From positions 1 through 36,077 of the IMG/VR virus record IMGVR_UViG_3300021963_000354: a stretch of 36,077 bases of DNA. One strand, given 5' to 3'. The stretch's first letter is position 1; the number at the start of each line of letters is the position of its first letter. A program made the position numbers and the translations under genes. Positions 1,705 to 23,633 of this stretch are shown here, one piece after another. The stretch comes from a virus. Under the pieces are notes generated by a model. It ran no database searches, was not told the origin of the DNA, and was given only the letters and a program-made list of their open reading frames with translations.

Positions 1705-3371
1705 TATCTAGTTCCTAACGGGTTCATTTCTACATCAATCCCTACTGTATTAGTCCATTGACCTGTAGGAGTTAATTGTAGACGATGATACCTTCCAACA
1801 CCACGCAAAGATACTCTATTTTCGGCATCTGCTGCTGTCTGTGAACCAAATATGACTTGTTCGCTTAAAAGCCTACGAGAGAATAATGCAACGCTACCAG
1901 AGCCATTATCCACAATTGGTTTAGCTAGAGTGATAGCTGAGGTTACACCTGGCATCTCAATATCGCCTGTCTCAATGTAGGCTGTATTGTTTGCACCTGA
2001 GAATGTAATGATCTTGGTGTTTCTGACACCGGCAAACTGCATCTTTCCACCAAGCCAAATACGGCTATCAAACGAGGTAGGAATAGTGTCTAAATTACCG
2101 AATACATCTAATCCTTCTAAAGCTACAGAGGGTGTAGAAGATGATGCAATTCTGCTTGCATTAGTTGTACCGCTAGTCCACTTGTTTGTCTGATAATTGT
2201 AGATAAGTAGTTTATCTACAGTTGCAGAGGCTTGAGAAGCATAAGCCCAAATAACGAGCTTTCTTGCAGGATCTACTGCTGCCGACATAAGGTTTAATGC
2301 ACCTTCATCAACATCTGAAAAAAAGTATCGATTGACCTTTTCGTTCCCAATCGGAATAATCTGCTGTCCATCACACGCATAAAAACCATCGTCTGATAAA
2401 AAGAACGATGTGCCACCATACTGAATAATCGAGTTTGCCTCGTAGCACCCTTGGTTTCTGCTGATATTGTCAAACTGAAACACCAAAGGACTGCCAATAT
2501 ACGACATCCGATGGATAGAACGATCCATAAAGACTAGACCATACTCGCCACCTGTAAGACCGACTACAGAGCCACCATCAGGAATGTCTTGGAAGTCTGC
2601 CTGTGTAGTCGCAGAGTTAGCCCAAGAGGACTCATCTCCCAATGCTGACCATTGCACCCTGTTTGGATATACAGTAGAACTGTTTATGTAACCAGAAACA
2701 ACAAAGTCTCTAACTACAGTTACATATCGTGCTTGTGGTGCATCGGAGGCTAGGTCTTGGAATGTAGAACTTGTGTTTACATTGTATCCCTGTAACCTGT
2801 TACCGCCATTCGCTGCGACCAACACATTACCAAATTGAGTAAATCTCCAACGCTGATTGGTAGGAGTTGTGTATAAAAATGTTACTGTGCCTGTATCAGC
2901 CGTTGTTGTAATGTCTGTGCCAGTTTGAGCATAACTAAATGTTGTAGAAGTAACTACTGTAATAGTAAATGTGCCATTGACACCAGTAGTAGATGTTGCA
3001 GCTACTGTTACCGAATCGCCCACAGAATATCCATGAGCAACAGATGTGGTAATAGTAACGACATTGGTTGTTCTGACAACATTGGTAATTGTTCTGCTTG
3101 CCTTGACTACAGAATCCAAAGATAGGTCTGTAGTGTCTAACTTAAATAGTTTTGTAGCACCGCCAGCAAACACAAGTGTTACTCCTGCTGATGTTCTAGC
3201 AGCAACTACATTGTTTAGGTTCTCGGATGTTGCACCAGAATAGTCCTCGGCTGCGTTAATAGCACCATATCCCAAAGCCTTAGAAAAGACATTTTCTGCC
3301 CTTTGTAATCCATTGGCTAGACCTGGCTGATCTGGAGTCCACTCCCCGAAAGTTATTCTACTTATTGCCAT
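1704..3371 (-). CDS. Tail hub/stabilisation-type protein (P22 gp10-like)
   Basis: 555 residues, start ATG. The N-terminus MAISRITFGEWTPDQPGLAN and the following text (ENVFSKALGYGAINAAEDYSG) match the pattern of large podovirus tail proteins often called stabilisation or hub proteins. The motif region around FGNVLVAANGGNRLQGYN and VVSGYINSS, then RVQWSALGDESSWA, is typical of beta-propeller-like tail hubs. A Thr/Val-rich insertion at about residues 95-165 resembles an Ig-like or ubiquitin-activating-type fold insert seen in phage tails. In P22 this class closes the portal after packaging. It overlaps the preceding repeat protein by 10 bases, consistent with translational coupling. Function is assigned from sequence pattern and position. 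Confidence 0.7.
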   Translation of the reverse strand: MAISRITFGEWTPDQPGLANGLQRAENVFSKALGYGAINAAEDYSGATSENLNNVVAARTSAGVTLVFAGGATKLFKLDTTDLSLDSVVKASRTITNVVRTTNVVTITTSVAHGYSVGDSVTVAATSTTGVNGTFTITVVTSTTFSYAQTGTDITTTADTGTVTFLYTTPTNQRWRFTQFGNVLVAANGGNRLQGYNVNTSSTFQDLASDAPQARYVTVVRDFVVSGYINSSTVYPNRVQWSALGDESSWANSATTQADFQDIPDGGSVVGLTGGEYGLVFMDRSIHRMSYIGSPLVFQFDNISRNQGCYEANSIIQYGGTSFFLSDDGFYACDGQQIIPIGNEKVNRYFFSDVDEGALNLMSAAVDPARKLVIWAYASQASATVDKLLIYNYQTNKWTSGTTNASRIASSSTPSVALEGLDVFGNLDTIPTSFDSRIWLGGKMQFAGVRNTKIITFSGANNTAYIETGDIEMPGVTSAITLAKPIVDNGSGSVALFSRRLLSEQVIFGSQTAADAENRVSLRGVGRYHRLQLTPTGQWTNTVGIDVEMNPLGTR

Positions 3372-15112: not shown

Positions 15113-15625
15113 ATGGAAAACATCAATTGCCATAACTGTCAAATATTTTTTAAACCAGTTAGAAAAACTACAAAATATTGCTGTAGAAAATGTCAAGCTA
15201 TACATCTTGCTGTTCGTTTTGGAAAACAACGATCAGAAAAACGAAAGAATGGCAAAGTGCATATATGCCAACAATGCTCTACAGAGTTTTATGCTCCAAA
15301 ATACAGAACAGATACTGCTAAATTTTGTTCAAAACGATGTATTACTTTGGCTCATCCTGAGATAACCGAAATGGCTAGAAAAAACAGCCCAATTATGAAA
15401 AGGGCTGGTTTATCTAAACCTAAAAAATATGTCGTTGTTAATGTAGATGGCAAACGAGTCAGAGAACATAGATATGTTATGGAACAACATTTAGGCAGAA
15501 AACTAGAATCTTGGGAACAAGTCCATCACATAAATGGAAATGAAATTGATAATAGAATAGAAAACCTAATGGTTTTGTCTAACTCGGAACATCAAAAACT
15601 AGAATTAAAACAATTTACTTCTTAA
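15113..15625 (+). CDS. HNH endonuclease with two zinc fingers
   Basis: 170 residues. N-terminal zinc sites: C6-C9 with C24-C27, then C52-C55 with C72-C76. The C-terminal HNH core is [19 protein letters not shown] with the His pair at 138-139. This layout is typical of free-standing homing endonucleases. It is the only rightward gene in this part and interrupts a leftward block, so it is probably a mobile insertion. Its last 11 bases overlap the end of the opposite-strand microprotein gene. Confidence 0.85.
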
Positions 15626-18632: not shown

Positions 18633-18982
18633 AGTTGACCTCCACTATCCTAAAGAATATCTACAATATGCTTGTGGTGTGTGAGCCTTTCGATAAATGG
18701 CATATGCCTTTAGCTGCTCAGATTAAATTTATAGTCAATGCAGATCCCGATGTGATGGGAACTTATATGTATGATGATGGAGAGAAGTGGGAACACACCA
18801 TTACCATCTCTACTGCCAGGTGCGGATTCCTAGATACAGTTATTAGGACTATGGCTCACGAGATGATCCATATGAGTTTTTATCGTAGAAAAGGTAATAA
18901 GTGGGCGCAACATGGAAAGGAGTTCCGTTCTCGCTGTTTTCGTGTTGGAAAAGAACTGGGTCTAGATCCTTTAGAACTTTAA
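18629..18982 (+). CDS. SprT-like zinc metalloprotease
   Basis: 117 residues. The signature MAHEMIHMSF holds HExxH (77-81), and the third ligand is probably H95 in KWAQHGKEFR, the SprT-family order. Such proteins cleave protein attached to DNA. It is coupled to the phosphoesterase, and together they could process DNA ends or DNA-protein crosslinks; this partnership is inference. It ends convergent with the Mom-like gene (overlap 4 bases). Confidence 0.85.
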   Translation: MKLTSTILKNIYNMLVVCEPFDKWHMPLAAQIKFIVNADPDVMGTYMYDDGEKWEHTITISTARCGFLDTVIRTMAHEMIHMSFYRRKGNKWAQHGKEFRSRCFRVGKELGLDPLEL

Positions 18983-19596
18983 ATTTTAATTAGCCATCTA
19001 TCCTTTGGTTTAGTGATATTTGCTGTAAGACCTAAAGTTTTTACAGATTGTTTAAAAGATAATCCTGTTTTTAGTTGATGATGTCTTGGAATCCTGCGAT
19101 GAATAAAACCGCCATCTTTATCAATAAAATGAACTTCTGGTCTTGTAACGCCTAAATGCATAAAGTTTGATGCTTTATAAATTCCACCATTGTGTTTATG
19201 TTCTGGGTCGCTAAAAGAAACTACAAATTTATATTTCATTTTTTTAAGTTTTTTATGGCAAATACTTAAAAATTTAGTTAGTGGAAAATTATCATTTCTT
19301 GGTTCTTTTCTACACAGTCTTTTGAGCTCAATTAAATTATCATCAGTAATTTCAAACCCAGTAATTTTTGATAAAAACTCAGATTGATATGTATTAACTC
19401 CAATTCCGTAGTTTGCTACTGCATACAAATCATTTTCTAAAAACCATCCAAAAAATATATTTTGACCAGCAGGAACAATTTTGCTGTAATGATATGTTTC
19501 AATAAATGCCTTTGCATCATGTAAAGATATTTCTAATACCTTAGGTGGTTCATCTACAAAATACCCAAAATCAAAAGTATTTTGTTTGCTTTTCAT
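18979..19596 (-). CDS. Mom-like DNA adenine modification protein
   Basis: 205 residues with a GNAT-like fold of the Mom family (phage Mu Mom adds methylcarbamoyl groups to adenine). Signature regions: YHYSKIVPAGQ at about 35-45, a segment with ELKRLCRKEPRND at about 90-102 and SFSDPEHKHNGGIYKASNF at 127-145. A basic C-terminus follows. It overlaps the upstream HNH-like zinc gene by four bases (ATGA). Modified adenines would hide the genome from restriction enzymes. Confident in the family, not in the exact chemistry in this phage. Confidence 0.82.
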   Translation of the reverse strand: MKSKQNTFDFGYFVDEPPKVLEISLHDAKAFIETYHYSKIVPAGQNIFFGWFLENDLYAVANYGIGVNTYQSEFLSKITGFEITDDNLIELKRLCRKEPRNDNFPLTKFLSICHKKLKKMKYKFVVSFSDPEHKHNGGIYKASNFMHLGVTRPEVHFIDKDGGFIHRRIPRHHQLKTGLSFKQSVKTLGLTANITKPKDRWLIKI

Positions 19597-20785: not shown

Positions 20786-21116
20786 ATGGGTTTAATCCTA
20801 ACTCTCTGCCCTTGGCTAAAGTAAGTTCATCGCTTGCATACCAAGGCAATGGAGGTTTTACATTCTTCTTTTCCTCTATTACCAACTCATCTTCCCAACG
20901 CTGCTGATTTAGCCAAGTGCTTGCATGAGGTATGTAGTCTAACTCCGTACCTTTAACTGTCCAATACTTACGATGCTCTACTATTGCCTCTAGTGCCTTT
21001 TGCTTGTGATCGTCTGGCATTTTTTGCCACGATCTTTGCGCTGTTAGTTTACCGACCTTACGGGGATAGATCATCCAAAATTCATCAAAATTAACCATGA
21101 TGAGCAAACTCCCCAT
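20715..21116 (-). CDS. Replication accessory (DnaT/helicase-loader-like C-terminal domain) protein
   Basis: 133 residues; the likely start is the second ATG (MVNFDEFW, residue 7, 21098). The pattern FDEFWMIYPRKVGKLTAQRS, a helical middle and YIPHASTWLNQQRWEDE is the C-terminal domain of many phage O-like replication initiators or DnaT-like loaders. Here it stands alone, without the DNA-binding N-terminal part, so it would need a partner. No phage helicase or primase is seen, suggesting it recruits the host's. Overlaps the HNH/AP2 gene by 26 bases. Confidence 0.72.
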   Translation of the reverse strand: MGSLLIMVNFDEFWMIYPRKVGKLTAQRSWQKMPDDHKQKALEAIVEHRKYWTVKGTELDYIPHASTWLNQQRWEDELVIEEKKNVKPPLPWYASDELTLAKGRELGLNPYAGESFAQFRSRLSAKIGSTATM

Positions 21117-21570
21117 GAAAATGCTCTCTAGCTTTTATCATAACCTCTTTAGCTTCATTTATATCATTGTATAAACCTAATGATTTTCTTTTGCCATTTA
21201 TGCAAACTCTTGCCCACCATTTTTTTGTTTTCTTATGAAAGCTAATTCCTTTAACACCACTTGTATTTCTACTGTTTTTTCTTGAATACAAAGTATTTTT
21301 AGATTGATCAGCAGCTCTAAGATTTTCAATATTGTTATTTAGCTTGTTTCCATCAATGTGATCTACTACTTTTGGCAAATATCCATGTTGCATCAAAAAA
21401 ATAATTCTATGCTGACAAAATGTTTGGTAATTTATTTCTACTTTTGCATATCCGTTTTTTTGTTCCCATCCAACCTTTTTGCCAGATGATTTATAAAATA
21501 GTTTTCCATCTTTGTAATAAAACAAATTGTGTAAATTTATTTCTAGTAATGTAAAATCTTTTGCAGCCAT
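21091..21570 (-). CDS. HNH homing endonuclease with AP2 domain
   Basis: 159 residues. HNH core at residues 69-86 (VDHIDGNKLNNNIENLR), then an AP2-type DNA-binding part at about 103-145 (SGVKGISFHKKTKKWWARV). This pair is typical of phage homing endonucleases. Its end overlaps the replication gene start, showing late insertion or adaptation. A stable hairpin at 21602 lies just upstream. No intron boundaries are visible. Confidence 0.9.
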   Translation of the reverse strand: MAAKDFTLLEINLHNLFYYKDGKLFYKSSGKKVGWEQKNGYAKVEINYQTFCQHRIIFLMQHGYLPKVVDHIDGNKLNNNIENLRAADQSKNTLYSRKNSRNTSGVKGISFHKKTKKWWARVCINGKRKSLGLYNDINEAKEVMIKAREHFHGEFAHHG

Positions 21571-22323: not shown

Positions 22324-22544
22324 GAAACTTTAATAATCTTATACGAGTTCTACAAATAAGTCCTAAGTATTTTCCCTAATGTATCGTATTTGTTCCATTA
22401 ACTACCTTTAGGTAGTGTTTATATAACAATATACAACTTGTAGGTAAATATTTAAATAACTATACATCTTGTATATATTTTATATATATCAATCCTAACT
22501 TGTATAAAAAAGTGGATATTTTATACATATCCTAAAGACAAAAG
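22324..22544. other. AT-rich gene-free stretch
   Basis: No gene is evident. It is AT-rich, with three CTTGTA copies (near 22436, 22466 and 22498), a hairpin-like dyad ACTACC-TTTA-GGTAGT (22401-22416), and long TATA/ATAT runs that would open easily. It may be a promoter, operator or replication-origin region. A promoter-like pair TTGTAT and TATACA lies near 22500-22530. Confidence 0.6.
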
Positions 22545-22900
22545 AACGACCAACATCACCGAGGTGATGATTTCTACAAGTGATGTATCTTGTTGCAAAA
22601 TCTGAATAGCTGGCTTGTACCAAACTACTCGGCTATCGCAGGTGTCGACCCTCGCTGTCTGCCACTTCCTCGCAGACCCTCTAGCCCATCTAGCATTTTT
22701 CTATCGCGCACAGCATTTAGCGCGTGTCTAGCTGCAAAAGGAAAACCCCAATAGTCTTAGGAGGGGTATGTCCCTTGGCATGGGCAACTGTTGACAGGTG
22801 GAAAGCAGATTTCTCGCTGACTGTCTACAACTACACATACCCCGCCTAAAAATACTGGGGTTGTAACTGCTTTCCTTATCTTGGTTGCCACACCAGACGA
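22545..22900 (-). ncRNA. Candidate large structured RNA with pseudoknot
   Basis: No convincing gene. Inverted pairs: a 28-base arm at 22744-22771 with 22835-22862 (four mismatches), and a perfect nine-base pair at 22800-22808 with 22867-22875. The order is arm, second arm, arm, second arm, which is a pseudoknot. Further hairpins: 22554-22569 (7 bp), 22657-22677 (6 bp), 22705-22724 (5 bp) and 22606-22636 (5 bp). A leftward -10 TATAAT at 22910-22905 precedes it. The strand is a best guess because neighbours read left. Resembles large phage RNAs in character, not identified. Confidence 0.5.
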
Positions 22901-22925
22901 TTCTATTATAAACCAAAAAATTATA

Positions 22926-22985
22926 TCCCGATCAGTTCATTCTGTTTAAAAAGTAGGCAAATTAGCCAATAATTTCCCGATCAGA
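22926..22985. repeat. Ten-base direct repeat pair TCCCGATCAG
   Basis: TCCCGATCAG occurs at 22926-22935 and 22976-22985, 50 bases apart. The second overlaps the end of the nuclease-like gene. It could be a protein-binding site flanking the structured region, or chance. Confidence 0.45.
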
Positions 22986-23292
22986 ACTCAAACTCCTTGT
23001 AGTCGTACCTCCCATTTTCTTTTTTGTACCAGCCGAAAACCAAGACACGCCAGTTTGACCTTAAAACTTCTGGCAACAAAGGCGATTCGCTTATTTTTTT
23101 TATCCGAGTAGACATATTGCTTTTGGAAGTAAGTTGGATGGCTACAGTCTCTCCGTTTCCAATAGCCAATATGTCGAATATTCCAAACAAATCTTTTTTT
23201 CGTTTGGTAAAAGCGTTGTACGATTCCACGACATCGCATTGATAGCCTCTCTCGGTCATTAGCGCAATGGTGCGCTGATTAAGACTAGCCAA
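22981..23292 (-). CDS. PD-(D/E)XK-like nuclease candidate
   Basis: 103 residues. Core DLFGIFDILAIGNGETVAIQ followed by LTSKSNM is the pattern of small VRR-type or resolvase-like nucleases, but the usual ExK reads QLT (53-55), as in some divergent members. The C-terminal part ends WRVLVFGWYKKENGRYDY. Overlaps the Cro-like gene by eight bases. Possible Holliday-junction or mismatch nuclease; catalytic ability is uncertain because of the changed motif. Confidence 0.65.
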   Translation of the reverse strand: MASLNQRTIALMTERGYQCDVVESYNAFTKRKKDLFGIFDILAIGNGETVAIQLTSKSNMSTRIKKISESPLLPEVLRSNWRVLVFGWYKKENGRYDYKEFEF

Positions 23293-23482
23293 GATCTTCT
23301 GCTGTTATCTTGCCTTCTGAGGCAATAATGATGGCTTTGTGGTGCTTTTGTGGGATGCTGTTACGCATTGACCAGGCATAGACAGTTACATACTTCATGC
23401 CGAGCTTGTCTGCTATATCTTTGTAGCTGCCAAATACTTCTAGCAATTTATCAAAGTGTTGTGTTTTTACAACAGTATCCAT
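23285..23482 (-). CDS. Cro/YdaS-like helix-turn-helix regulator
   Basis: 65 residues. Helix-turn-helix at about 18-40 (SYKDIADKLGMKYVTVYAW), with a closing IIIASEGKITAEDLG typical of Cro/YdaS-type proteins. It reads away from the divergent operator region and is the first leftward gene, as expected for a phage repressor or Cro. It is the natural candidate to bind the TGTAGA/TCTACA sites. Preceded by AAAGGAG, a strong ribosome site. Confidence 0.8.
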   Translation of the reverse strand: MDTVVKTQHFDKLLEVFGSYKDIADKLGMKYVTVYAWSMRNSIPQKHHKAIIIASEGKITAEDLG

Positions 23483-23633
23483 ATCTTCTCCTTTTGTAGA
23501 TTTTTGATTCTAGCCTAATTCTGTAGAAATGTAGATATTAGGGTATATCCCTAGTAGATATTCTACAAATCTCTACAAATATCTGTATAGTCATATCTAA
23601 GCGATGTTGCTTATTTCTTGTGAAAGGGAAAAA
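23483..23633. promoter_or_regulatory. Divergent early regulatory region with operator array
   Basis: TGTAGA at 23495, 23522 and 23530, and TCTACA at 23562 and 23572. They flank the dyad TAGGG-TATAT-CCCTA (23539-23553). The whole unit is roughly symmetric about 23547. Possible -10 boxes: leftward TAGAAT and rightward TATAGT near 23586. Five copies in 83 bases far exceed chance, although the hexamer also occurs in coding regions of this genome. Confidence 0.6.

Follow-up and report, generated by a model that had tools for sequence, protein, structure and literature searches.

A previously uncatalogued structured RNA of freshwater phages at the start of the early genes, with exchangeable 5' domains and a hypervariable pseudoknot stem

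What does a stretch without an evident gene encode at the start of a phage early operon, and what could it be for? The window analysed here comprises the 36,077 nucleotides of IMG/VR record IMGVR_UViG_3300021963_000354. For one part of it (22545-22910), a sequence-only reading had proposed a large structured phage RNA with a pseudoknot and no convincing gene. Consistent with the latter, homologues of the window's type (type A) share no long reading frame. We found that the locus encodes a previously uncatalogued structured RNA of freshwater phages, located at the start of the early genes. The RNA lies on the minus strand at 22542-22899 and is approximately 360 nt long. The minus strand folds with z = -4.10, a value equalled by 0 of 100 shuffles, while the plus strand reaches z = -1.77. 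The extent proposed earlier holds as a structured stretch, and the element reaches further down, to about 22542. In near relatives the block 22522-22915 is approximately 97% identical, while the flanks diverge.

Homologues were collected with a motif from the 3' half, which retrieved 87 viral contigs; added patterns extended the collection to about 130 related IMG/VR contigs with the same 3' core. The RNA was found within 400 bases of a contig end in 22 of 134 contigs, an enrichment that is not clear. Searches of INPHARED with blastn gave no real match for the window RNA or for the form without a 5' domain (type 0); a different core, core II, touches one Manatee Spring phage. The GTDB genomes yielded one short contig (L202) in a Bacteroidota MAG and one chance match. 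L202 is 3.5 kb long, carries a type B element with the same core as the window and is probably a phage fragment mis-binned into the MAG.

No Rfam family accounts for this RNA. The window gave no match at the gathering threshold, including to GOLLD, ROOL and other large phage RNAs, for which a search had been proposed, and in the surrounding region only chance matches appeared up to E = 10. Across the homologue loci no GOLLD, ROOL, P4 CI/SeqA, IsrK or C4 model matched, and a search for tRNAs and tmRNAs found none. Since no Rfam model matches, the RNA is not filed under GOLLD, ROOL, C4, SeqA/IsrK or Betaproteobacteria-1. What may be new is the RNA class, of which subscription papers or preprints may hold an earlier description; the mechanism is possibly of a known kind. 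That the stretch encodes a large, pseudoknotted phage RNA of a class outside Rfam is strongly borne out by compensatory changes, whereas the idea of a giant RNA of the GOLLD or ROOL type is not, as there is no Rfam match and the RNA is only about 360 nt long and leader-like with swappable domains. Group I and II introns, RNase P, tmRNA, retrons and packaging RNAs were considered as well, and no supporting feature was seen. For HEARO/omegaRNA there was no HEARO model match, and the tested neighbours are an HTH gene, a VRR-NUC-like gene and small ORFs, with no IscB, IsrB or TnpB among them.

Four further short hairpins had been noted beside the pseudoknot. The 3' half of the element, treated before as such side hairpins, is its most conserved part, here termed core I. 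Measured over 28 diverged cores, covariation amounted to 0.563, compared with 0.155 +/- 0.012 in shuffles and at most 0.119 with slid partners. A covariation check of the kind proposed with the earlier reading thus gave compensatory changes far above both controls. In the nine-helix model of the core 91.6% of cells are paired, and 30 pairs have changed on both sides. GGCUA/UAGCC, for instance, is replaced by GGAUU/AAUCC and by GGGUA/UACCC, and in a loop helix GUCAAG/CUUGAC is replaced by GUUGCG/CGCAAC. One of the two crossing helices, helix 4, joins the 3' end of the RNA back to the core. The core is a real structure; its peripheral helices 5, 8 and 9, only 63-77% paired, are less certain. Model R1, built from the core alignment, finds the window (Table 1) and fits the cores of the type 0 elements L185, L226 and L231 at 85-98 bits, none of which was used in building it. 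In type B relatives, the loop of hairpin H1, which opens the 3' core, pairs downstream (CGAC/GUCG, CUCC/GGAG, AGUC/GACU); the window sequence itself does not show this pairing.

Table 1. Features of the RNA and its neighbourhood (positions in the window)
Feature	Position	Strand	Basis or remark
Core I, nine helices, two crossing	22542-22691	-	Covariation; model R1, 132 bits
Crossing helix (helix 4), CGAC + GUCG	22644-22647 with 22547-22550	-	CG to AU with partner kept (AGAC/GUCU), 4 sequences
Crossing helix (helix 7), loop UACAAG + CUUGUA	22614-22619 with 22575-22580	-	Two-sided changes in 5/6 pairs; pairing in 97.5% of cells
Hairpin H1	22701-22726	-	Sequences
P1, 3' strand GCUAGAC, beyond the U-run	22726-22732	-	Pairs with 22892-22898
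U-run UUUUCCUUUU after G-run, terminator-like	22736-22745	-	Sequence
Long helix of type A 5' domain, 3' arm	22744-22771	-	RNAalifold consensus
Hypervariable stem, 3' arm CUGCUUUCC	22800-22808	-	Cis/trans pairing test
Long helix of type A 5' domain, 5' arm	22835-22862	-	RNAalifold consensus
Hypervariable stem, 5' arm GGAAAGCAG	22867-22875	-	Cis/trans pairing test
Leader hairpin, 3' strand ACCAAGAU	22878-22885	-	Pairs with 22892-22898
5' strand GUCUGGU	22892-22898	-	Two mutually exclusive partners
-10 box TATAAT	22905-22910	-	Sequence; putative own promoter
Second TATAAT, with -35-like partner	22920-22925	-	Sequence
VRR-NUC-like small nuclease gene, upstream of the RNA	22981-23292	-	Authors' reading; no Pfam/PHROG match
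Cro/YdaS-like HTH gene, first in early operon	23285-23482	-	PHROG 35, 409; Pfam YdaS_toxin, P22_Cro; below curated cut-offs

Core I is joined to differing 5' domains, namely A (in the window), B, C or D, or to none (type 0). Compared across the contigs, at least four such domains are interchangeable, and parts are swapped between phages. The type A domain contains a long helix of two 28-base arms, whose coordinates had been given correctly; of the four mismatches counted before, two are true mismatches and two are G-U wobbles. The helix shows little covariation because it is mostly invariant. In types A and B it ends in a G-run followed by a U-run, and types C and D are alike by eye. A G/C-run with at least four T ahead of the core was found in 126 of 131 elements, the remaining five being the type 0 elements and one chance match. 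The U-run end of the 28-base helix resembles an intrinsic terminator, and transcripts may end there. At the other end, the leftward TATAAT noted earlier was found on the minus strand directly upstream of the RNA (Table 1), and a TATA-like box lies directly 5' of the element in types A-D and is missing in type 0. The type 0 elements L185, L226 and L231 begin right after the stop codon of the nuclease-like gene, without a promoter of their own. They may represent the simplest form of the core.

The nine-base pseudoknot is formed by the leader and a loop region inside the long helix. As proposed from the sequence, its arms pair perfectly and this pairing crosses the 28-base pairing; moreover, it persists in homologues with wholly different arms. 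The arms of the window, GGAAAGCAG/CUGCUUUCC, correspond to GAAUAAGAG/CUCUUAUUC in L126, UCUGAAUAGG/CCUGUUCAGA in L168 and UCACCAGUAG/CUGCUGGUGA in L187. The near-identical elements L003 and L126 show 16 differences over 440 positions, 13 of them within the two arms, with pairing kept. The type A stem pairs over 8.4 bp in cis vs 4.8 bp in trans, and none of 5000 permutations reached the observed value. The two stems of type B gave 7.5 vs 4.4 bp and 6.9 vs 3.6 bp (0/5000 permutations each), and in the type D pair L214/L219 an arm swap with pairing was seen by eye. Variable segments that are complementary within one transcript, as in P4 CI/SeqA, IsrK and C4 RNAs, are thus present here. A helix that changes very fast in sequence yet keeps its pairing, together with swapped parts, indicates that the locus is probably a switch or an identity tag and not an ordinary gap.

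The extreme 5' strand of the type A element has two partners. In the leader hairpin, which contains a bulge, 100% of cells are paired and covariation is 0.661 vs 0.246; in P1, formed with a strand beyond the U-run, 93.9% are paired and covariation is 0.518 vs 0.212. For these counts the strands were cut and joined by hand, so that the register is our choice; slid controls stayed at or below 0.154 for the leader hairpin and 0.190 for P1, which argues against a register artefact. All covariation and pairing counts come from small sets of related sequences and are to be read as support for pairings, not as probabilities. They support two conserved, mutually exclusive pairings of the type A 5' strand, as judged from aligned sequences. 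In type B, GCAGA has a local partner and also a UCUGC partner after the U-run, by sequence and uncounted. Next to the hypervariable arm, the leader of types A and B has a segment similar to the inner hairpin's proximal arm, and the two could compete for one strand.

The RNA belongs to the early operon, where a Cro-like or a VRR-NUC-like gene usually precedes it. This operon diverges from a recombination operon encoding a Sak-like annealing protein and a YqaJ-type exonuclease. A Cro/YdaS-like HTH gene lies upstream of the RNA, with or without the VRR-NUC-like gene, and variable small genes and a replication-type gene follow downstream. As these downstream genes vary, the target would be the operon and not one gene. 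The operon begins with the RNA in L219 (type D) and L212; there, and in type 0, where it directly follows the nuclease gene, it is accordingly transcribed in cis. Neither an integrase nor a CI-type repressor was recognised among the proteins examined, which were part of the ORFs, so lysogenic immunity is unlikely for the window phage. The nearest isolated phage by capsid (54% identity) has a Methylophilales bacterium as host; judging by the capsid relative Venkman, freshwater Methylophilaceae would be a guess at the hosts of such phages.

Further features were seen in the neighbourhood. In the window, CTACAAAT(A)TC-like words recur between the divergent early operons, at 23480-23600, where the HTH protein may have its operators. 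An AT-rich tract with TATACAAGTTG-like near-repeats lies just downstream of the RNA (22330-22520), possibly an origin or another promoter region. The window also encodes a Mom-like DNA modification protein and two HNH endonucleases at 18979-19596 (-), 21091-21570 (-) and 15113-15625 (+), one HNH gene with a weak AP2 match.

In relatives, this slot can be filled by other RNAs. Core I was present in one (G036) of 37 records, many of them fragments, whose capsids are related, and R1 found no core I in the Methylophilales phage Venkman and four other records. Behind the nuclease-like gene, G010, G011 and G016 have a type B 5' domain followed by other cores in this slot. Seven relatives without core I match RF02932, the Betaproteobacteria-1 RNA, in the same early-operon slot by gene order. 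The RF02932 model has no match in the window or in G036, and R1 has none in the relatives carrying RF02932. RF02932 was observed in the slot in L246, L248 and L249 and in G014, G017, G018, G020, G022, G023 and G028; its 5' arms vary yet stay complementary by eye, and a TATA-like box lies just upstream. Betaproteobacteria-1 RNA, whose likely source is reportedly a 2017 study of 224 candidate RNAs, may hence be among the phage early leader RNAs. G010 carries the same core II with different 5' domains near its two contig ends (511-635, 35424-35563), and G036 has core I and a core II-like RNA, one near each end (2932-3088, 39900-40027). Such paired versions fit several alleles in one population, and may stem from mixed-strain assembly or from a true duplication alike. 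Their position at contig ends looks as if assembly had broken at a polymorphic locus.

How could these parts work together? Structure, modularity, hypervariable pairing, alternative pairings and genomic position are observed; we infer that the promoter is used, that transcription terminates at the U-run, that the RNA refolds when read through and that it acts on early transcription. Tentatively, we favour a leader RNA that controls early transcription through a short terminated form or through readthrough and refolding. A host sigma-70-type promoter would initiate the RNA. Part of the transcripts would fold the leader hairpin, the pseudoknot and the long helix and stop at the U-run, giving a short RNA of roughly 160 nt. 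In transcripts that read through, the 5' strand would shift to P1, the 5' domain would refold and the core would form. The core would then act on early-operon transcription, most likely on elongating RNA polymerase, like the put RNA of phage HK022. Owing to the hypervariable stem, the switch of each phage would not interfere with those of co-infecting relatives.

The leader model is favoured by the covariation of the core together with the independent fit of type 0 cores to R1, by one 5' strand with two exclusive covarying helices, by the U-run after a G/C-run in nearly all elements and by hypervariable arms that are always complementary. The conserved early-operon position, the same map position as HK022 putR, and the filling of this slot by other RNAs, including RF02932, point the same way. 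However, there is one element per genome where HK022 has putL and putR, and put RNA is far simpler. In addition, a constitutive promoter followed by termination at the U-run would yield the core only on readthrough, and the putative competition of leader and proximal arm is a by-eye reading. The counts come from related sequences.

The swapping of arms en bloc between near-identical elements also speaks for a trans-acting identity, immunity or exclusion RNA, the chief rival reading, though of rather low probability. Here, the short RNA with its hypervariable loop would pair with the complementary leader arm of nascent copies in the same cell and force or prevent their termination, comparable to P4 CI RNA with seqA and seqC or to Gifsy-1 IsrK acting on its own readthrough transcript. 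Several versions within one assembled population, and a promoter and terminator-like end in the fashion of a small RNA, agree with this, and the IsrK isoforms provide a precedent (PMC4825925). Against it stand the lack of a recognisable integrase or CI-type repressor in the proteins examined, the conserved core and P1, which it leaves unexplained, and type 0, which has no 5' domain. In a related proposal, which we consider doubtful, the slot would be an RNA-only allelic identity locus with exchangeable 5' domains and cores, and the hypervariable helix would provide the specificity when RNAs of phages infecting one cell together recognise, exclude or ignore one another.

Similarly unlikely is a noncoding RNA that acts in trans by binding a host protein or molecule, for example as a counter-defence decoy, and has diversified to escape recognition. 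An own promoter in most types, the compact conserved core, early expression by position and the fast turnover of exposed parts would suit such a role, but no partner is indicated, type 0 has no promoter of its own, and the diversified stem keeps pairing, so that shape is preserved and not sequence. A homo-multimer like GOLLD or ROOL appears very improbable: identical molecules could join by pairing of their complementary arms in trans, with the leader arm beside the base of the long helix and its partner near the far end, but the RNA is unrelated to both by their Rfam models and shorter, and position and U-run suggest a leader. We give still less weight to an origin-linked RNA such as a replication primer; the adjoining AT-rich tract and the replication-type gene downstream in relatives would fit, but variable small genes often intervene. 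The weak single-sequence fold of the core alone (z = -1.2) is all that speaks for a chance structure or an unrecognised coding region, which the covariation far above shuffled and slid controls and the lack of a long frame common to type A homologues render practically negligible.

The RNA family described here covaries strongly, has crossing helices in both of its domains and two conserved, mutually exclusive states, and is spread over approximately 130 contigs of metagenomic phages. In this natural system one can ask what makes a phage diversify a single RNA helix at such speed and, should the stem indeed act in trans, it would be an RNA-based recognition system.

GOLLD and ROOL are considerably longer than the window RNA. 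They are large ornate phage RNAs with crossing helices (PMC12286853), and they form multimers; the window RNA is likewise large and ornate, with crossing helices, but their covariance models do not match it. Closer by position is Betaproteobacteria-1 RNA, which shares the slot in close relatives, the upstream TATA-like box and, by eye, variable 5' arms, but differs in sequence, neither model matching the carriers of the other. For this RNA, for which no function was found, our data provide a genomic slot and a testable role. IsrK, encoded in an early prophage operon and made as a short and a readthrough isoform, was called a structural homologue of P4 SeqA (PMC4825925). Gifsy-1 IsrK and P4 SeqA with CI RNA resemble the window RNA in their location in an early operon of a phage, in having a promoter and a terminator of their own, in a short form beside a readthrough form, and in RNA-RNA pairing within the locus (PMC4825925), the promoter, termination and two isoforms being putative in the window RNA. 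Unlike them, it has no Rfam match, is much larger and has a separate conserved core and no sign of lysogeny. HK022 putR is located about 270 nt downstream of PR (PMC9378689), so that the two phages have in common a structured early-operon RNA a short way downstream of the early promoter, with a matching map position after a Cro-like gene. In contrast, put has about 70 nt and two stem-loops and is found in both early operons, whereas the window RNA has about 360 nt, of which the core with its nine helices, two of them crossing, takes up 150 nt, an internal U-run and swappable domains, with one core in the window and one motif match per locus. By analogy, the mechanism may be like that of put or IsrK, and a core that did act on RNA polymerase would make this RNA a second put-like antiterminator, much larger than the first.
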